From positions 1-42,553 of IMG/VR virus record IMGVR_UViG_3300020162_002660: a stretch of 42,553 bases of DNA. The stretch is one strand, 5' to 3'. Of this stretch, positions 6,678 through 40,731 are shown in pieces. Source of the DNA: a virus. The stretch's first letter is position 1; every line of letters starts with the position of its first letter. Below the pieces are notes generated by a model that saw only the letters and a list, made by a program, of their open reading frames with translations, ran no database searches and was not told the DNA's origin. The position numbers and the translations under genes are program-made.

Positions 6678-9600
6678 TTATTTGTTTTCTATTTTGGCAT
6701 TTGTGATATCATTCACCGTTGATATGTTTTCATATCCACCATATGTATTCATTGTTGTACTTACACCACTTTGTTTTACTTTTATTCTTTTTGAATCTTT
6801 TAGATCTACTATATGTTTGGCACCTACTACTGTATAAGAAATAGTATCTTCTAAAATATATTGTCTATTTGAAATGCTATTATTTACTTTATCAACGTCT
6901 GTTGCTCTGTCATGTTCGGTTTGTTTGGATATTGCACGTATATCAATTGATGTACTTAATGCGAACGCACCATCGTTTTTATAAAGTTTACTTAATGGAA
7001 TCGTTGTTGCTCTTATTGCATATGGATTCCCATTTAATTTTTCATCATTTATTCCGAAAGAAGAATCATCTACCTTTACTCCACCATTACTATTTTTTAT
7101 ATAGTTTTTCATATGAAATGAAGTTAATGAATAACTTAAATAAGCAATATCACCTTTTATGTCCTGTATATAGAAAAAATAGGTTCTTTCTACATTACTT
7201 CTTTTTTCTTTCAGTTTTAATGAAAAGAATGTGTTTTTTAAATTGTTTAAATCACCATCATAATCTAATGCGGTATTACTATTTAATGTTGTCAATTTTA
7301 TAGGGTTTATTTTACCTGCAACATCAGTTACTACATCTTTATCATCTCCATAATAAGTGTCTTTTCCTTCTGGATCTGCTTTATAGCCAAAGTATTTATC
7401 TAAGAATTTTGCTTGCGCACCTTGTTCTTTTCCAGATCCACCTTTGTATAGTTCATCACCATCTAGCATATCTGTCATAAACTTTCTAAGATTCATACCT
7501 GCCTTTTCTATATACTCATTACCAACTTTTATTCTTGTTCCAACATTGAATATACATTGGTATCTTTTATCCTTTTTAACATCATTAACACAATCTTCCC
7601 ATTGATTGAATATTGCATTATTTCTGTATGGTCCACCACCTTCACCAGCATTTGCAGGAGTTCCACCACCAAAACAATGATATTCCATAAAGGTTTTGTT
7701 TGAAACTTTTCCACCAGATCTTCCAGTTGGAATAACTTGAGTTGTGTGTAACTTATATGCTCTATTAAATACTTTCACAATCTCTAATACTGGATCCATT
7801 TCATTTATAACAACAGAGTCTTTTTTCTCAGCAAGTTTTTTATCTAAGTTTATTCTTATTTTTTCAAATTCAGTTTTTTCCAACATCCATCTTTTTAAAT
7901 CCATTTTCTTACCCCACCAATCTTGTATTCTGGTAACACTATTTGGATTTTTCCAACCAGATACTTCACCATCTTTTTCTTCTTTTTCTGGTTGATTTTC
8001 TTCTTTTTCTGGTTGATCCTGTACTTGACCTTGACCCTGTGTCTGTCCTTGACCCTGTGCCTGTCCTTGACCCTGTGCCTCATTCATAGATTCCTCTACC
8101 TTTTCGACTTCTGACATGAACTTTGTATATTCTTCTCCTTTTTTATCTTTGAAGACTAATTTTTTACCATCGATTCTTAATATATCTTGTGATATTGTAT
8201 TTCCTGTCTTATCACTTTTCCAAGATACTTTGTCTCCAACTTTCCATTTACTTTCAATTGCAAATACATTTTTCATGTATTTGTTGAAACCTTCAATGTT
8301 TTCGACAAGTTCATCCCAAACTTCTCCAATCGTTCCTGGGTATTGTGGGAAACTACCATCTGGTTTTGTCTTAGTCACCGAATATAACATAGATATTTTT
8401 TTACCCATATCTTCTGACTTTCCTAATATATCATCAATTCCTTCTGTTATTCCATTTTCGGATCTAACAAAACTGTATATTTTTGATATATTTGTTTTAT
8501 ATCTATTATATGTTAATCTTAATTTAGGATCTCCTTCTATCTGTTCAGGTGTAAGTTTTAAAAATCTATGAAAATCACTATCCTTTGATAAGATACTACC
8601 TTCTCCAGCTTGTGTGAAAATTTTATACACCTGACTCAAAGAATTCCATAGTTTCTCTGTTTCTGTATCTAATTTTCTTTCGTCTTTTCCACCGGTGATA
8701 AATTTAAATACCTTTCCTACGACCCCACCTACGGCTTTACCTATTCCTTCATTTATTCTTTTAAATTCATCATATTTTAATAAAGATACTGATGAATTCT
8801 GTTTAACCGTTTGTCCTATTTTACCACCACCACTAGCGGCTTTACCTTGTGCTTGAGCTTGTGCTTGAGCTTGTGCTTGAGCTTGAGTATCTTTTGTTGG
8901 TACAACTTGTTCTTGATCTTGAGCTTGAGTACCAGATGTTCCTGAAGTTCCTGTAACACTTGAAGTTCCTGTAACACTTGAAGTTCCTGCTGTGGATGTC
9001 GTTCTATTTTTATTGTATTCAATTCTTTCGGATTCAATTCCTTTGAATATTAATAACATGTTAAATAAATATTTGAAGTTACCAAATTGTGCTTCAGTTT
9101 CATTCATTATTTCTTCAGAGTTTTCTTCTTCTTCCTGTCCTTCTTCCTGTCCTTCTTCCTGTCCTTCTTCCTGTCCTTCTTCCTGTCCTTCTTCCTCAAA
9201 CTCATTTAAGAACTTAGACCATTCATTAAGTTGTCTTAATAATTCATTTTTATCTTCTAAATCTTCACTACTTTCGACTGCACTTATTGCAGTTTCTGTT
9301 AGACTTTTTAATTCATCCATAGAACTTCCCTTTTCAACTCCTTCTTGTAAGGCAATAAGATAAGTTGTTATAAGAGCTTTTGCATATAACTTTTTATCAT
9401 TCTCATCTAATTCGGCAACAGATGTATTTAATAAAAGTTCATCCATTGCGTCTCTAAGTCTTTGTTCAACTGCTTTTATTCTAATAAGATTTGCACCAAT
9501 TTTAGCCTTTCTTATTGCAGAATTTATCAATCTTCCTAATAAAGAATCACCCCAACCAATATCATTTGAAAATGGACCAGCATTGTCATTTTCCTCATTG

Positions 9601-9689
9601 ATAGACTCATTAGGTATATAGTTTTTCTTTATGTTTAAAATATTATTATAGTTTTTCAAAAACTCATCTCTCTTATTAAGATATTTCAT
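6678..9689 (-). CDS. large repeat-rich virion protein, possible internal head polyprotein
   Basis: A 1003-residue protein of unknown family. The N-terminus MKYLNKRDEFLKNY resembles the shared leader and is followed by INE at 30-32. A second leader-like segment, LLKYDEFKRINEG, occurs internally at residues 307-319. Low-complexity tracts separate the folded parts: about six GQEE repeats (165-190), SVTGTS repeats (240-257), a QA run (272-286) and GQ/AQ repeats (543-562). The C-terminal 400 residues look globular, with Gly-rich loops and many beta-strand patterns, and no recognised motif. Several (I/L)-x-E sites suggest cleavage by the prohead protease into several products. It is co-transcribed with the coiled-coil gene downstream. 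The leader suggests a head-internal, ejected protein. This is inference. Confidence 0.75.
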   Translation of the reverse strand: MKYLNKRDEFLKNYNNILNIKKNYIPNESINEENDNAGPFSNDIGWGDSLLGRLINSAIRKAKIGANLIRIKAVEQRLRDAMDELLLNTSVAELDENDKKLYAKALITTYLIALQEGVEKGSSMDELKSLTETAISAVESSEDLEDKNELLRQLNEWSKFLNEFEEEGQEEGQEEGQEEGQEEGQEEEENSEEIMNETEAQFGNFKYLFNMLLIFKGIESERIEYNKNRTTSTAGTSSVTGTSSVTGTSGTSGTQAQDQEQVVPTKDTQAQAQAQAQAQAQGKAASGGGKIGQTVKQNSSVSLLKYDEFKRINEGIGKAVGGVVGKVFKFITGGKDERKLDTETEKLWNSLSQVYKIFTQAGEGSILSKDSDFHRFLKLTPEQIEGDPKLRLTYNRYKTNISKIYSFVRSENGITEGIDDILGKSEDMGKKISMLYSVTKTKPDGSFPQYPGTIGEVWDELVENIEGFNKYMKNVFAIESKWKVGDKVSWKSDKTGNTISQDILRIDGKKLVFKDKKGEEYTKFMSEVEKVEESMNEAQGQGQAQGQGQTQGQGQVQDQPEKEENQPEKEEKDGEVSGWKNPNSVTRIQDWWGKKMDLKRWMLEKTEFEKIRINLDKKLAEKKDSVVINEMDPVLEIVKVFNRAYKLHTTQVIPTGRSGGKVSNKTFMEYHCFGGGTPANAGEGGGPYRNNAIFNQWEDCVNDVKKDKRYQCIFNVGTRIKVGNEYIEKAGMNLRKFMTDMLDGDELYKGGSGKEQGAQAKFLDKYFGYKADPEGKDTYYGDDKDVVTDVAGKINPIKLTTLNSNTALDYDGDLNNLKNTFFSLKLKEKRSNVERTYFFYIQDIKGDIAYLSYSLTSFHMKNYIKNSNGGVKVDDSSFGINDEKLNGNPYAIRATTIPLSKLYKNDGAFALSTSIDIRAISKQTEHDRATDVDKVNNSISNRQYILEDTISYTVVGAKHIVDLKDSKRIKVKQSGVSTTMNTYGGYENISTVNDITNAKIENK

Positions 9690-17038: not shown

Positions 17039-17638
17039 ATGAAACATATCAGACAATTTGAAAGTTTTAGAATTCAAAAAAACCGAGAAGAAATAATCAG
17101 AGAATCTGTTCTTCAGGTTAATGACATATATAAGGTTAAAACTATGATTGATATTCCTCAATCTTTAATCAATTCTTATGTTAAGAAAGTAAAAGATACT
17201 ACTGGAAAAAATCTTCGTCAGTTTTTTGGTGATGTTGACATCGCTGAAGAGATTGTAAAATATATAACTATTAACAATACAGACGTAGAAAAAATTCCTG
17301 GAAACGCATTAATGGGTGGTGCACAAGGTCAGGGTCAGGCACAAGGTCAAGGACAAGTTCAGGTACAAACTGAAGGTGACGCTCAACCACAAGCACAAAC
17401 TCAGGCTCAGTCACAAGAACAAGCACAGCCACAGGGTCAAGCTCAAGAAGGACAAGGACAAGAAGCTCAAGAAGGAGAATTCGAAGAGCCACAAGCACAG
17501 GGACAAGGTCAGGCACAAGAAGGACAAGGTCAGGCACAGGAAGGACAAGGTCAGGCACAGGAAGGACAAGCTCAAGAAGGTGAAGAAGGTGAGGAAAAAG
17601 AAGAAGGTGAAGAAGGTGAAGAAGAACTTCCACTTTAA
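17039..17638 (+). CDS. leader-bearing protein with Gln/Gly-rich repeat tail
   Basis: A 199-residue protein in two parts. Residues 1-95 are a folded-looking domain that starts with the shared leader MKHIRQFESFRIQ and has an IRE site at 25-27. From about residue 95 the protein is a low-complexity tail of GQ, AQ, EG and QA repeats, ending acidic (EEGEEKEEGEEGE). The same type of Gln/Gly/Ala repeat is found in the 1003-residue protein. It may be an internal head protein with a flexible tail. It has its own promoter box and a terminator at 17665. Confidence 0.65.
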   Translation: MKHIRQFESFRIQKNREEIIRESVLQVNDIYKVKTMIDIPQSLINSYVKKVKDTTGKNLRQFFGDVDIAEEIVKYITINNTDVEKIPGNALMGGAQGQGQAQGQGQVQVQTEGDAQPQAQTQAQSQEQAQPQGQAQEGQGQEAQEGEFEEPQAQGQGQAQEGQGQAQEGQGQAQEGQAQEGEEGEEKEEGEEGEEELPL

Positions 17639-24303: not shown

Positions 24304-24960
24304 ATGAAAATAATAAACAAATTCAATATTTTTGAAGCAATCAATAATAATGATAGTTCTACAAAAAGATCTAATAGACTTCTTACTGATGCACAAAGAA
24401 ATTATGAAGAAAATCAAAGTGAGGATAATAGTGGTCCGTCACCTGCAATGCTTTTTACAGATGTTGTTGGATCTTCCAAAATGTGGTCTGATGATCCAAA
24501 GACTATGGATACACAATTAGATAAACATTTTAAATTAATGGATGGACTTGCTCGTAAAAGAGGTGGATTTGTTGTTAAAACAATTGGTGATGCATTCATG
24601 ATTTATTTCCCAAAAAGTAAAAATTCACTTGAAAATGCAGTAGAATTTGCAGTAGAAGTAACTAAACAAGAAGAACTTCCTCTTAGAATAGGAATATGTT
24701 CTGGTAAGATGACTGCTAAAAAATGTAGAATACAAAATGTAGAACTTTTAGACTTTTTTGGTGATGTTGTAAATACTGCCTCAAGAATGGAGTCTAAAGT
24801 CTCTGAAGAGGGTGGGATTGCATTTACATCGGTAGATGATATTAGCGAACAGGTTAAATCTTTATCTAAAAAATATAGATTAAGTAAAATAAGTGGTTCT
24901 GGAATTCCTGATTTAAAAGGTGTTAAGATTGAATATGCTTATAGATTAAAAGTAACTTAA
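24304..24960 (+). CDS. class III nucleotidyl cyclase with capsid-targeting-like leader
   Basis: A 218-residue protein with a single class III adenylyl/guanylyl cyclase domain from about residue 48. Metal-binding Asp53 is in LFTDVVGSS and Asp96 in VKTIGDAF. Lys92 and Asp150 are in the positions that select adenine. Asn157 and Arg161, in FFGDVVNTASRME, are the transition-state residues. All key residues are present, so it is likely active, and more likely on ATP than GTP. There is no sensor or membrane domain. The N-terminus MKIINKFNIFEAINN resembles the capsid-targeting leader, with an IFE site at 9-11. It has its own promoter box. Effects on host cyclic nucleotide signalling or on nucleotide-based defence are possible. 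Confidence 0.88.
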   Translation: MKIINKFNIFEAINNNDSSTKRSNRLLTDAQRNYEENQSEDNSGPSPAMLFTDVVGSSKMWSDDPKTMDTQLDKHFKLMDGLARKRGGFVVKTIGDAFMIYFPKSKNSLENAVEFAVEVTKQEELPLRIGICSGKMTAKKCRIQNVELLDFFGDVVNTASRMESKVSEEGGIAFTSVDDISEQVKSLSKKYRLSKISGSGIPDLKGVKIEYAYRLKVT

Positions 24961-29323: not shown

Positions 29324-29783
29324 ATGCAGCGGTTTCATATGTGTCGACATAAAAATAGACTACTTTGTTGTCTATTATATGCGGTCTTAAATCAATATCC
29401 ATTGAATTTTCCATACGCTCTTTTACTACTTTACCCATAGGAGTTTCCAATAATCTACATCTTAGAGTTAGCTTTTCTACTTTGTTTTCTTTTAGAATGA
29501 AAGACATTCCTTTTATTACAAGAGTGCTTAGTTGTAAAGAAACTTCATTACCAAAATTTCCAAGTTGTGCAGTCAAAGATATCGATTCTATGTCAAATTG
29601 TATTCTTTTACCTGATTCTAAAATATTTGTTAGTCTAATATCTCTTTTGAATGAAGTCCATTCTTTATATCTAGATATCAAATCTTCGAATTGATCCAAA
29701 GTATTGTTTTGTAACAATACTTCGTAATCAAAATCTTCTATATTATCTTCGGTATTAGACCAATCTTTGAATAACTGTCCCAT
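29322..29783 (-). CDS. hypothetical protein coupled to RNase R
   Basis: A 153-residue protein. The first 50 residues are acidic and aromatic (LFKDWSNTEDN), and the remainder is strand-rich. No family recognised. Its ATG overlaps the RNase R stop (TAATG), so it is translated by coupling from that gene. The pairing could mean a linked role in RNA handling, or simple operon proximity. Confidence 0.6.
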   Translation of the reverse strand: MGQLFKDWSNTEDNIEDFDYEVLLQNNTLDQFEDLISRYKEWTSFKRDIRLTNILESGKRIQFDIESISLTAQLGNFGNEVSLQLSTLVIKGMSFILKENKVEKLTLRCRLLETPMGKVVKERMENSMDIDLRPHIIDNKVVYFYVDTYETAA

Positions 29784-31666
29784 TAGAACCTTAAAAAGTT
29801 TATTTGTTTTTTTTCTAAATCTACTGATTTTACAACAGCTTTGATAGGATCTCCTAATCGAATTTGATCTCCAAACTCATTATATGCTAAGTATTTATCA
29901 GTATCTGCAATCCATTTACCATTAAGAGTTTCCAATCTTATCAAACCTTCACATTTGTTTTCGGTAATTTCTACATAGATTCCTCTATCCATAACACCGG
30001 TTACTATTCCGTCAAATACTTGTCCTATTCTTTCTTGTAGATATTCTGCTTGTTTGTATTTAATAGAATCTCTTTGTGCCTTTGCTGCAATAAGTTCTCT
30101 ACTTGAACACCATTTTGCATTTTCTTCTATCTTTACAGGATTGCCTTGTTTACCATTAGTTAGTTTGTCAAATAATATTCTATGTGTTATTAAATCAGGA
30201 TATCTTCTAATTGGTGAAGTAAAGTGTGAATAGTGTGTAAATCCTAATCCATAGTGTCCTATGTTTTTGATTGTATACACTGCCTTTGACATACATCTCG
30301 TTACAAGTGTTTCAATCATATTTTCTTCCGGACTTCCTTTAATTTCTTTTAAAAGTTGATTTAGATTATTTTTTAAAATATCTCCCTCATCATCTAATTC
30401 TAGTCTATATCCAAAATTAGTACAAACACTTTGAAGTGCTGCTAATTTTTCACCATTTGGTTTATCATGTACTCTATATACATTATGCCACTGATCTTTT
30501 GCTAAAAGTTTTGCAACAGATTTGTTGGCCAAAAGCATATATTCTTCAATAAGTTTGTTTGCGTCTTTTTGTTCTTTGAAATAAACACCAATTGGTTTTT
30601 TATCATCTTCTGCTAATTTGAATTTAACTTCAATTCCACCCATTTCAATAGATCCGTTTTTTATTCTGGCCTTTCTTATTTTTTTAGCAAGAGTATCTAA
30701 CTGACGAATTTCTTTATGATAGTCACCATCCAATCCTTCGATTATCTCCTGTGCTTCTTCATATGCAAATCTTCTATCAGAGTGTATAACTGTTTTACCG
30801 TGCCATGTGTCTTTTATCTTACCATCTTTGTCTAATGTGAATATTGTTGAAAATGCCAATCTATCTACGTTTGGTTTAAGTGAACATATTCCATTTGAAA
30901 GTCTTTCTGGTAGCATTGGTACACATCTATCTACTAAATATACAGAAGTTGCTCTTTTAAATGCTTCTTTATCCAACTCGGTTCCAAATTTTACATAATG
31001 TGCAACATCTGCTATGTGAACACCTACTTGAATATTGTTTGGATCTCTCATATCTATTGATATCGCGTCATCAAAATCCTTTGCATCAACTGGATCAATA
31101 GTTATGGTAGTTACACCACGCATATCTTTTCTTGATTTAATCTCTTTTTCAGAAATTGTTTCTGGTACAAGTTCTGCTTCATTTAAAACTTCTTGCGGAA
31201 AATCTACTGGCAATCCATATTCATACATTATTGCATTCATCTCTGTATTGTTTTCCCCAACAAAACCTAATATTTTAGTTATTATTCCTCGTGGAGACTT
31301 TTTACCAAGATCCCAATCTAAAAACTCTACTAATACTTTTTGTCCATTTTCTACATCTGATTTACCTTTTATATAAAAGTCTACCACCATCTTAGGACTA
31401 TCCGGTATTACAAATACCGTATCATTTTTTACTTGTGCAGTACCTACAAACTCGGATTTGAATCTAGATGTTACTTCTAAAACTTTACCCTCTAACTTTT
31501 TTTGACCTTGGAATATTTCAACACGGGCAATATCTAAATGAAGTGCGTTTGCTGTTTTCTTTTTGTGTATAAAGACTTCCTTTCCTTCTATCTTTATGTT
31601 TGCATTTCCTGATGTTGAGAATTCTATCTGTGTTTCAAATATATCTCCTTCTTTAATTTTACTCAT
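29783..31666 (-). CDS. rnr: RNase R-like 3'-5' exoribonuclease
   Basis: A 627-residue RNase II/R-type enzyme. A start at MSKIKEGD (31666) is preferred over an in-frame Met 36 nt upstream, which would overlap the previous gene more. An N-terminal cold-shock/OB region comes first (about 1-150). The catalytic RNB domain follows with DPVDAKDFDDAIS (about 191-203, four acidic metal ligands), then VHIADVAHYV, then the HYSHFTSPIRRYPDL motif (about 470). A C-terminal S1 domain starts at about 550 (FDGIVTGVMDRGIYVEI). It lacks the long N-terminal helix-turn-helix of E. coli RNase R. RNase R is the nuclease that degrades nonstop mRNA with tmRNA. A phage copy is unusual. Confidence 0.9.
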   Translation of the reverse strand: MSKIKEGDIFETQIEFSTSGNANIKIEGKEVFIHKKKTANALHLDIARVEIFQGQKKLEGKVLEVTSRFKSEFVGTAQVKNDTVFVIPDSPKMVVDFYIKGKSDVENGQKVLVEFLDWDLGKKSPRGIITKILGFVGENNTEMNAIMYEYGLPVDFPQEVLNEAELVPETISEKEIKSRKDMRGVTTITIDPVDAKDFDDAISIDMRDPNNIQVGVHIADVAHYVKFGTELDKEAFKRATSVYLVDRCVPMLPERLSNGICSLKPNVDRLAFSTIFTLDKDGKIKDTWHGKTVIHSDRRFAYEEAQEIIEGLDGDYHKEIRQLDTLAKKIRKARIKNGSIEMGGIEVKFKLAEDDKKPIGVYFKEQKDANKLIEEYMLLANKSVAKLLAKDQWHNVYRVHDKPNGEKLAALQSVCTNFGYRLELDDEGDILKNNLNQLLKEIKGSPEENMIETLVTRCMSKAVYTIKNIGHYGLGFTHYSHFTSPIRRYPDLITHRILFDKLTNGKQGNPVKIEENAKWCSSRELIAAKAQRDSIKYKQAEYLQERIGQVFDGIVTGVMDRGIYVEITENKCEGLIRLETLNGKWIADTDKYLAYNEFGDQIRLGDPIKAVVKSVDLEKKQINFLRF

Positions 31667-32051
31667 TTGATTTGTTCTTTTTTGATATATTGTCAACTCC
31701 ATATTTTTCTACTAGAGTTTTTTTCATTTTTGACAATACTTTTTTATTTTGAATTGGGTAATCCACTCCAAAGTTTTTTCTAAGAGTTTCCTTTCTTTTT
31801 ACTTCAGAGCATTTTCTACAAGAATAATCTCCCCAATTTTTATTATCGTATTTTAGATAGTTTTTATAGATTACTTCTTTTTCCAAACCACAACCATCAC
31901 ACTTACATTTGATTTTATAATGTGATCCATTTGGTAGAAGCTCTACCGGTATAGTTATTGTTTCGCCTATTAAAATATCATATCCTAAGTCCTCATAGTA
32001 TTGATAATTGGACTCATTTATTTTAATTTCAATTTCTCTTGTAAGTATCAT
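31659..32051 (-). pseudogene. truncated homing-endonuclease-like protein
   Basis: A 130-residue frame. It opens with ESNYQYYEDLGYDILIG, then two CxxC pairs (CKCDGCG, CRKC), then a repeat of the NUMOD/DNA-binding type: LRKNFGVDYPIQNKKVLSKM followed by LVEKYGVDNISKKN. Free-standing homing endonucleases of this kind are usually much longer, with a nuclease domain after this block. Here the frame ends just 8 nt into the RNase R gene, so the catalytic half is missing. It may be a decayed element that entered between the scaffold and RNase R genes, or a smaller DNA-binding protein that is still made. Confidence 0.6.
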
Positions 32052-36243: not shown

Positions 36244-36642
36244 ATGAGAAATCTAAAAAAATTCAATAATTTTTTAAAAGAAGGAAAAAAAGATAAATTT
36301 CCGGATATTAAAAAGTCTGATATAGATGGGTTCGTAGTTTATTTAGGTAGAGATGCCAAATCAAACGACCATCTTACTTTTAATGTTGCAGATGAAGAAG
36401 ATATATGGATGCATGTAAAAGGAGTTCCTGGTAGTCACGTAGTTATTAGAGTTAGAGAAAATCTACCTACCGAAACTATTATTAAAAAGGCTGCAGAATT
36501 GGCAAAAAAGAATAGTAAAGCAAAAGACAAAGAACATGCAACCGTTGTCTATTGTCAAAGAAAGTTTGTCAAAAAGGATCCAGGTATGAATGATGGACAA
36601 GTTAAAGTCGATTATGTAAATGCACACGATATTAATATATAA
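36244..36642 (+). CDS. stand-alone NFACT-R domain protein with leader
   Basis: A 132-residue protein that is almost all one NFACT-R (DUF814) domain, the C-terminal domain of RqcH/NEMF. Visible blocks are FVVYLGRDAKSNDHLTF, then DIWMHVKGVPGSHVVIR, then a helix of AAELAKKNSK and a last strand ATVVYCQRKFVKK. In RqcH this domain contacts the obstructed large ribosomal subunit and tRNA in C-terminal tailing. The N-terminal leader MRNLKKFNNFLKEGKK has an LKE site at 11-13, suggesting packaging and cleavage. No NFACT-N or coiled-coil arm is present, so it could compete with or modify host rescue. It is first of a three-gene set with a peptidase, just upstream of the tmRNA. Confidence 0.85.
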   Translation: MRNLKKFNNFLKEGKKDKFPDIKKSDIDGFVVYLGRDAKSNDHLTFNVADEEDIWMHVKGVPGSHVVIRVRENLPTETIIKKAAELAKKNSKAKDKEHATVVYCQRKFVKKDPGMNDGQVKVDYVNAHDINI

Positions 36643-38483: not shown

Positions 38484-38491
38484 TATCTTTG
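38484..38491 (+). promoter_or_regulatory. possible Bacteroidota sigma-A promoter of the tmRNA
   Basis: TATCTTTG (TAnnTTTG) ends 27 nt before the mature 5' end of the tmRNA, leaving a short leader that RNase P would remove. A TATATATA run overlaps it, so late transcription is also possible. The -33 element is weak. Confidence 0.5.
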
Positions 38492-38517: not shown

Positions 38518-38879
38518 GGGGATGTCATAGATTCGCCTAGCAGATTGGTGGTAGTTATGCAAGTATCGGGTTGTCTAGTGTCCGATTTATAAATTAAGAG
38601 GCAACGTCGTAAATGGCAAAACAAATGAAGTAGGAACTCGTGAAGACTTAGTAGCGGCCCTAAAAGCAATTGGAGCTAACACTCCAGAATTAGTTTAATA
38701 AGAGAACTAATCAAAAAAAATTCTCCGACTGTCTCGCGCAGGTTAAATGCGAAAACCTTTTTGTATGTTTAAGGCTAAAAAACTAAATATTTTGTAAGTT
38801 TAGAAAAACTTACTAAGCTTGTAAAGATTAGTTATTAACAACTGAGTAGTACATGGGGAGCATTGCCCCATCATCTCCA
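38518..38879 (+). ncRNA. ssrA: transfer-messenger RNA (tmRNA) with non-canonical 27-codon tag
   Basis: The acceptor stem is GGGGATG (38518-38524) with CATCTCC (38872-38878), then discriminator A and CTA. The third pair is G-U, the alanyl-tRNA synthetase identity element. A T-arm-like stem TGGGG/CCCCA (38854-38870) has the loop AGCATTG, unlike the usual TTCRA loop. The 5' half has the conserved ATGCAAGTATCGGG block. The resume codon is probably GGC at 38615, in the context GTAAATGGC seen in Bacteroidota tmRNAs, which start GE-TNYALAA. Here the tag starts GKTNEV, runs 27 codons, ends NTPELV and stops at TAATAA (38696-38701). It lacks the ALAA degron. Pseudoknot-like segments follow. Terminator at 38885. 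Confidence 0.9.
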
Positions 38880-38884
38880 CTAAC

Positions 38885-38918
38885 AATCTCATTATCATTT
38901 GATAATGAGATTTTTTTT
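38885..38918. terminator. strong terminator after tmRNA, shared with convergent HNH gene
   Basis: A 13-bp AATCTCATTATCA/TGATAATGAGATT hairpin with a TT loop and a run of eight Ts. The stop codon of the minus-strand HNH gene lies inside the stem. Confidence 0.9.
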
Positions 38919-39599
38919 ATCAAACATATTTATCTTACTACATAGTGGTTGTAAGTTTTTATAGTGATTTAATCTTATTATATCTTCTTCTGTTTTTGCA
39001 GAAGATATTGGTATAATATGATCGATTTGCCAAGTTTTTTCATACTCACCGTTATATAAACCGTGATTTTCCCAATTCATCCAGTTCTCAAACTTAGACT
39101 CTAAATGATTTTTAAAATCATCAAATGAACAACCCAATATATCTTCAGTTTTTGATCTTTTATCGAATCCACCTTTCTTAATACTATTGGATACTAACAC
39201 TCTTATTGCACATTTCAATTTAAAAAGAGAATCTATTTTTTTTCTATTCTTTAGATAATTACAGTGTGATTTTATTACTTTATCCTTATTATCTTGATAG
39301 TATTTTTTGTTCTTCTTTCTATATCTATCTACGTTTTTAGCATATCTTTCTCTATTTTTTTCGGATATTCTTATTTTATTTTCTTCAATTTCTCTATATA
39401 TTTTATTTTTTTTATTTCTAATTTCTTTATTATTGTCTCTATATTTCTTTTCCAATACCTTATACTTATCTATGTTATTTTCTCTATATAATTTTATACA
39501 AATTTTACACTCATTTTTAAAACCGTCTTTAATTCTATTACTTTTATGAAATTCGCTAAATTCCTTTTCTTCTCCACATTTTTTACATATCTTTACCAT
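38895..39599 (-). CDS. HNH homing endonuclease
   Basis: A 234-residue protein. The N-terminus has a zinc finger of four cysteines: CKKCGEE then CKIC. A very basic helix (about 40-125) with many Lys/Asn/Tyr follows. The HNH nuclease is at the C-terminus: WQIDHIIPIS with the catalytic His pair, then NHYKNLQPLCSKIN with the HNH Asn and metal-binding residues. The layout fits free-standing homing endonucleases common in T4-like phages. It lies directly beside the tmRNA, so the tmRNA site may be, or may have been, its target region. Confidence 0.85.
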   Translation of the reverse strand: MVKICKKCGEEKEFSEFHKSNRIKDGFKNECKICIKLYRENNIDKYKVLEKKYRDNNKEIRNKKNKIYREIEENKIRISEKNRERYAKNVDRYRKKNKKYYQDNKDKVIKSHCNYLKNRKKIDSLFKLKCAIRVLVSNSIKKGGFDKRSKTEDILGCSFDDFKNHLESKFENWMNWENHGLYNGEYEKTWQIDHIIPISSAKTEEDIIRLNHYKNLQPLCSKINMFDKKNLIIK

Positions 39600-40206: not shown

Positions 40207-40731
40207 ATGATAATAGATAAATTTGAAGGTCGTTGGAGATTTTTATCCAACTTTCATCCGTGTGAAGTAGAACATCAAGGTATAGTATATCCTTCTGTCG
40301 AACATTATTATGTTGCAATGAAGTGTAACAACGAGCAGATGATAAACGGCAAGCACTATACCATAGGTGATTTCAGAGAAATGATAGCAAGAATTCCAAG
40401 TGCCGCGATTGTTAAGTCAATTGGTAGAAAAATGCAAGTCAGAAAAGACTGGGATGATAAAAAAATAGACTTTATGCTTTATGGTGTAAGAGAAAAGTTT
40501 AAAGATCCTGGTCTAAAAGAACTTTTGTTGAGCACAGAAGATTTCTCATTGGTTGAAGGAAATGACTGGAATGATAGATTTTGGGGTGTTTCTCAGGGAA
40601 AAGGACTAAATCATTTAGGAAGAATATTGATGAGAGTTAGAAAAGAGATAATCGAAAGTGAAAACGATGTTGTTGTTGGTTCTAGACCAAACTCTCTTGA
40701 CGAATTCTTCAAACAAACTGGACAAAACTAA
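40207..40731 (+). CDS. NADAR domain protein (YbiA/DUF1768-like)
   Basis: A 174-residue NADAR protein. Visible motifs are the SNFHPCEVEHQGIVYPSVEH stretch (SNF and S-x-EHY), then IGRKMQVRKDWDDKK (GR-x-x-x-R-x-DW), and at the end NDRFWGVSQGKGLNHLGR (WG-x-x-G-x-G-x-N-x-LG). This family hydrolyses ADP-ribose bonds and riboflavin intermediates; some members remove ADP-ribose from guanine in DNA and act as antitoxins to DarT-like enzymes. A phage member may protect its DNA or NAD from such defence. It is first in a set with a DNA adenine methylase and a capsid-like protein. Confidence 0.88.
   Translation: MIIDKFEGRWRFLSNFHPCEVEHQGIVYPSVEHYYVAMKCNNEQMINGKHYTIGDFREMIARIPSAAIVKSIGRKMQVRKDWDDKKIDFMLYGVREKFKDPGLKELLLSTEDFSLVEGNDWNDRFWGVSQGKGLNHLGRILMRVRKEIIESENDVVVGSRPNSLDEFFKQTGQN

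Follow-up and report, generated by a model that had tools for sequence, protein, structure and literature searches.

Huge phages have already been reported to carry both tmRNA and its partner protein SmpB, in the survey by Al-Shayeb et al. 2020 (PMC7162821). More generally, published tmRNA tags span 8-35 residues, the binding of SmpB requires contacts between the D-loop and the T-loop (PMC3968760), and in E. coli the frame in which the tag is read is set by U85 and A86 (PMC2481249). RNase R degrades non-stop mRNA together with tmRNA-SmpB, and NFACT-R is a part of RqcH (PMC8012679). An ALAA-type end to the tag and a T-arm with a 5-bp stem and a TTCRANT loop are usual features of tmRNAs rather than defining ones. 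The tag of mycobacteriophage Bxz1 is probably long, with an LV end.

The stretch analysed here, referred to as the window, is the 42,553-base virus record IMGVR_UViG_3300020162_002660, a 42.5 kb fragment of its genome that codes for T4-like structural proteins, including the major head protein, the tail sheath and the terminase. Other genes of the window include one at 24304-24960 for an adenylate/guanylate cyclase catalytic domain (PF00211, E 3.7e-21), which is unusual in a phage and might point to nucleotide signalling, and one at 40207-40731 for a NADAR-domain protein (PF08719) that is possibly a counter-defence related to NAD or ADP-ribose. The proteins encoded at 17039-17638 and 6678-9689 carry long Q/G-E/A low-complexity repeats (GQGQ, QAQAQA).

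The tmRNA gene of the window and its relatives

An earlier note on this DNA had proposed a phage-encoded tmRNA at 38518-38882 and had suggested ARAGORN or Infernal as a check, which gave a divided answer. No tmRNA was found in the window by ARAGORN or by Rfam at gathering thresholds, but an Infernal search with RF00023 at an E-value threshold returned an end-to-end match (model 1-374) with exactly these ends on the plus strand. The match scored 35.7 bits (E 1.2e-12), below the gathering score of 47, which is a search threshold and not a biological feature. Because the single-sequence fold of the RNA was not significant (z -0.92), the matter had to be decided by comparison with relatives.

Copies that are 68-69% identical were found by blastn in two phage genomes that lack annotation, 635 and 642 kb long (LR745206 and LR756502, phages that probably come from the 2020 survey); RF00023 run over whole huge-phage records reported mostly tRNAs and left the full tmRNA of these two genomes unreported, though blastn finds both. 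In IMG/VR, relatives traced by the capsid gene, together with an exact-match DNA pattern, led to 125 further loci, some of which are overlapping stretches of the same contigs. An HMM search gave about 110 matches, 101 of them near full length and 62 distinct. A tmRNA, at least a partial one, is present in 61 of the 80 capsid-gene relatives, and most of the remaining records stop short of its position; the sole cases among the 80 with no tmRNA in the 6.8-10 kb downstream of the capsid gene are L077, L080 and L081. The parts of the gene and its flanks are as follows.

38484-38491, plus strand: -7 element TATCTTTG (TAnnTTTG) of the Bacteroidota type, likely the tmRNA promoter (enrichment among relatives)
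38518-38882, plus strand: tmRNA gene, ending ACTA with the CCA not encoded (RF00023 match, 62 distinct full-length relatives, covariation)
38518-38524, plus strand: acceptor stem, 5' strand GGGGATG, 7 bp with 38872-38878; G3-U70 is 38520-38876
38535-38564, plus strand: helix H2, 5' strand, pairing with 38817-38852 (alifold and pair counts)
38565-38605, plus strand: PK1, stems 38565-69/38582-86 (100% of cells paired) and 38570-76/38599-605 (78%)
38615-38695, plus strand: tag frame of 27 codons, GKTNEVGTREDLVAALKAIGANTPELV, resume codon GGC (Rfam alignment, 39 tags, U-5 A-4)
38696-38701, plus strand: double stop TAATAA (sequence)
38729-38752, plus strand: PK3, stem 2 with 100% of cells paired and double changes at 4/4 pairs
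38794-38816, plus strand: PK4, stem 1 with double changes at 5/5 pairs
38853-38871, plus strand: remodelled T-arm, 6-bp stem ATGGGG/CCCCAT and loop AGCATTG, without TTC (covariation)
38872-38878, plus strand: acceptor stem, 3' strand CATCTCC (Rfam alignment, covariation)
38885-38920, plus strand: intrinsic terminator, 12-bp stem and T tract

Covariation was measured on an alignment (A2) of 41 sequences with less than 95% identity. Across 63 pairs in the acceptor stem, H2, PK1, PK3, PK4 and the T-arm, 94.6% of cells are paired and double changes occur at 39 of the 63. None of 500 shuffles reached any of the five measures, and slid structures paired in just 32-47%; the structure was derived from the same alignment, which favours it, but the excess is far beyond what this can explain. 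Acceptor pairs 5 and 6 switch among A-U, G-C, U-A and C-G while G3-U70 is fixed in 41/41; the seven-pair acceptor stem with this pair is as first described from the window. In H2, the 23 counted pairs have 95-100% of cells paired, with double changes at 14. A PK2/H5 element, discerned by eye in the window only, lies outside the 63-pair count, and four relatives (L060, L016, L116 and L024) have an apparent T-rich insertion of 1-2 nt between the acceptor stem and the D-region. The negative ARAGORN result and the score below the Rfam cut-off might suggest a decayed remnant or a chance match of a host tmRNA, but the low scores accompany a change of the T-arm that is common to the whole family, and the 62 distinct conserved copies with their compensatory changes refute such a reading and leave it a negligible probability. 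Judged by the sequences compared, the tmRNA of the window is real, and its acceptor stem, H2, PK1, PK3, PK4 and T-arm are under covariation.

The TAnnTTTG element occurs at most 75 nt upstream of the tmRNA in 27 of the 41 relatives, as compared to 4.9% of background windows; no match to a -33 promoter element was found upstream of the tmRNA of the window. Terminator-like hairpins follow the tmRNAs of the relatives and differ in sequence from that of the window. Directly behind the terminator of the window, on the strand opposite to the tmRNA, lies an ORF (38895-39599) without a Pfam match that has 83% DNA identity over 60 nt to Flavobacterium phage genes annotated as HNH endonuclease.

The tag and its reading frame

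RF00023 aligns its resume codon with the GGC at 38615-38617, and U-5 A-4, the equivalent of E. coli U85 A86, lie exactly upstream of this GGC or its equivalent in 43 of 43 sequences. The Bacteroidota-like resume context described in the earlier note is borne out in the GGC frame, and so are the 27 codons, the TAATAA that follows them and the missing ALAA end. The same note had named resumption in the GCA frame, with the short tag AKQMK, as a result that would speak against it; the model sets GGC instead, and the AKQMK frame lies at the wrong distance from U-5 A-4 and is not conserved (ET* in 6 of 43 relatives).

The 39 distinct tags of the family have 27 or 29 codons, which are in-frame lengths, with no stops within the frame, and the 29-codon form reads roughly G(K/N)(T/V)NEVGTREDLVAALQNNMxxVE(D/E)LxxV. 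Codons 1-16 are conserved as G-x-x-N-E-V-G-T-R-E-D-L-V-A-A-L; their pN/pS is 0.54 in the tag frame, while the two others give 0.80 and 1.41, and purifying selection on the tag is estimated from these values to be weak. The C-terminal residue is V in 23/39 and A in 16/39, with AA in none, and an ALAA-type end is absent from the whole family. The sampled tags of Flavobacteriales have 9 residues and end in ALAA in 30 of 30, so the phage label is about three times as long as the bacterial one. Its length alone is not unprecedented, given the published range, and the tag of phage G (AKLNITNNELQVA, without ALAA) is a precedent for phage tags that lack this end.

What the altered end means for the fate of tagged proteins can be read in more than one way. 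The RNA could serve for rescue only, freeing ribosomes with a tag that is no degron, so that its products persist and are spared proteolysis or escape host ClpXP. The lack of any AA or ALAA end in a family whose Flavobacteriales counterparts uniformly have ALAA would fit, but the tags are held to V or A at their C-terminus, a ClpP and a ClpC-type unfoldase are encoded by the phages themselves (see below), and the phage G tag ends in QVA; we regard rescue alone as unlikely. Since all 39 tags end in V or A and that of phage G in QVA, an altered degron is no less probable than the absence of one. The earlier interpretation was thus sound as to the phage tmRNA, its resume context and the 27-codon tag without ALAA, but went too far in stating that the degron is lacking; the product stability, other protease or virion sorting that it raised would be tentative readings.

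Alternatively, the tag might bind a specific phage partner, for virion sorting, localisation or signalling, with degradation being secondary. Codons 1-16 are conserved more strongly than would seem necessary for a generic degron, although they may be constrained by the structure of the RNA itself. The idea that the tag mimics the C-terminus of a phage protein found no match when the ORFs of the window and of five relatives were searched (best E 2.1), and the idea that it forms an amphipathic helix failed as well, the hydrophobic moment not being above that of shuffles, which together make a partner-binding role improbable.

The tRNA-like domain, its probable protein partners and the proteases

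The T-arm of the phage family is present and covaries (double changes at 5 of 6 pairs, 98% of cells paired) but is built differently from that of bacteria. Most of the 41 sequences have a 6-bp stem and loops of the GGCAGTA type, with a TTC loop in 0/41; other stem or loop lengths occur in L057, L066, L070, L078, L082 and L095. In bacterial controls from the FCB group, a 5-bp T-stem with a TTCRANT loop was found in 27 of 27. The D-motif GG(N)TTGAC is also absent from the phage tmRNAs. ARAGORN likewise found no tmRNA in the five relatives on which it was run, and it is likely that the low ARAGORN and Rfam scores are due to this family-wide remodelling of the T-arm and D-region. A T-loop without U54, U55 and A58 on a T-stem one pair longer may impair binding by EF-Tu or by host SmpB. 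As the D-loop/T-loop contacts are needed for SmpB, the SmpB of the phages may have changed along with the RNA; 5/5 phage SmpB proteins depart from the usual residues at five conserved positions, which may be related to the rebuilt elbow. An EF-Tu of phage origin that would accommodate the longer acceptor-T helix was sought and not found.

Partner genes were sought in the four genomes that carry the tmRNA and are 385 kb or longer, the genome of the window being represented by its 42.5 kb fragment. SmpB, as predicted from PF01668, is encoded by every one of the four, at full length (E about 1e-50) and with an intact, invariant C-terminal KGKK-DKR tail. The gene lies 90-210 kb away from the tmRNA and not in one operon with it; in all four (L128-L131) it sits, 130-210 kb from the tmRNA, in a conserved cluster beside a thioredoxin gene and genes of unknown function. 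The nearest cellular SmpB proteins (about 45-53% identity) are those of Neomarinimicrobiota, Ignavibacteria and Bacteroidota, and this kinship, the promoter type and the start of the tag suggest that the host probably belongs to the Bacteroidota or a neighbouring group. ClpP is encoded in three of the four genomes, in two or three copies each, and in one 249 kb fragment; in two large genomes one copy is no more than about 3 kb away from smpB. All four genomes also encode a double AAA+ protein of the ClpC type, which has a VGF loop and leaves no space for an N-domain (four sequences read, three scanned with Pfam).

The tmRNA is usually flanked by genes for two further proteins, which in the window are:

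29783-31702, minus strand: RNase R-like exoribonuclease (CSD-RNB-S1), full length, without a K-rich tail (PF00773, E 1.4e-110)
36244-36642, plus strand: stand-alone NFACT-R domain protein (PF05670, E 7.5e-17)

The nuclease is kept in 16 of 20 relatives. In E. coli, a K-rich C-terminal tail recruits RNase R to tmRNA-SmpB. The NFACT-R gene, between the capsid gene and the tmRNA, is kept in 15 of 20; the RqcH core to which this domain of RqcH/NEMF is usually attached is absent from the ORF. None of these protein genes, nor the remodelled elbow or the conservation of the family, had figured in the earlier note.

A remodelled elbow could also belong to a decoy that soaks up host SmpB or obstructs the tmRNA of the host, in the manner of the RNA of mycobacteriophage DS6A, which consists of the TLD only; a TLD-only phage RNA has been reported to inhibit tmRNA (PMC4131195, PMC11915505). 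The family retains a full mRNA-like domain with a tag frame kept under selection, however, and its phages bring their own SmpB, so that a decoy seems very improbable.

We favour, at a probability of roughly 0.6, a functional phage trans-translation system with a rewritten tag that is probably still degradative. On the RNA side, the sequences give a full-length tmRNA with the alanine identity pair, a promoter-like element, a terminator and a conserved long tag frame. During infection the tmRNA would be charged with alanine by host AlaRS, bound through its rebuilt elbow by phage SmpB, and delivered to stalled ribosomes by host EF-Tu. Translation of the tag would free the ribosomes and leave products ending in Ala plus 27 residues (...TPELV). 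Most likely the tag has remained a degron, though one whose nonpolar V/A end has drifted from ALAA, the signal for host ClpXP; it would be degraded by phage or host Clp, and the phage ClpC-type unfoldase and ClpP may be what reads it. Phage RNase R would remove the non-stop mRNA, and the benefit would be that ribosomes and phage translation are kept running through a long infection. Against a functional system it can be said that the altered T-arm may hinder binding by EF-Tu or host SmpB, that smpB is far from the tmRNA, that selection on the tag is weak, that the roles of Clp and RNase R might be unrelated ones, and that three relatives have no tmRNA downstream of the capsid gene.

With partner protein and protease parts in the same viruses, the phages may run a private copy of the quality-control pathway. 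In its strict form, the rebuilt-elbow tmRNA would be read mainly by phage SmpB and the tag by the N-domain-less ClpC-type protein and ClpP of the phage, not by host ClpXP; we offer this as a tentative possibility. If true, phage ribosome rescue and protein disposal would be separate from those of the host.

Comparison with known systems

Within the open literature that was searched, an ARAGORN-invisible tmRNA family with a 6-bp, non-TTC T-arm appears to be new, as do a conserved 27-29 codon tag ending in V or A and the association with RNase R, NFACT-R and ClpC/ClpP. The 2020 survey of huge phages (PMC7162821) assigned its tmRNAs with ARAGORN, which misses the family of the window, and the tmRNA passages of its main text do not take up the anatomy of tag and TLD. 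Since the usual finder is blind to this family, counts of phage tmRNAs are probably too low. A natural tmRNA whose T-arm is non-canonical and whose T-loop lacks the UU offers a test of which elbow contacts are needed by SmpB, EF-Tu and AlaRS, and its tag can be regarded as an experiment on degron specificity that nature has run for a long time.

Like the one-piece tmRNAs of Flavobacteriales (RF00023), the phage RNAs have a G3-U70 acceptor stem, H2, the same PK layout, U-5 A-4, a GGC-type resume codon and a tag that starts with G, and in both the CCA is often not encoded. They are set apart from these by 27-29 codons ending in V/A rather than nine ending in ALAA, by the longer T-stem with its GGCAGTA-type loop, by a D-region without GG(N)TTGAC and by being hidden from ARAGORN. 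The tmRNA of Bacillus phage G is likewise that of a huge phage and likewise runs to its stop without ALAA, but its tag has 13 residues, and it is found by ARAGORN and lies above the Rfam cut-off. Methylophage Melnitz (PMC9004378) is an aquatic phage too, and its ssrA gene is complete; the gene is of the permuted, two-piece alphaproteobacterial form, unlike the one-piece tmRNA of the window.
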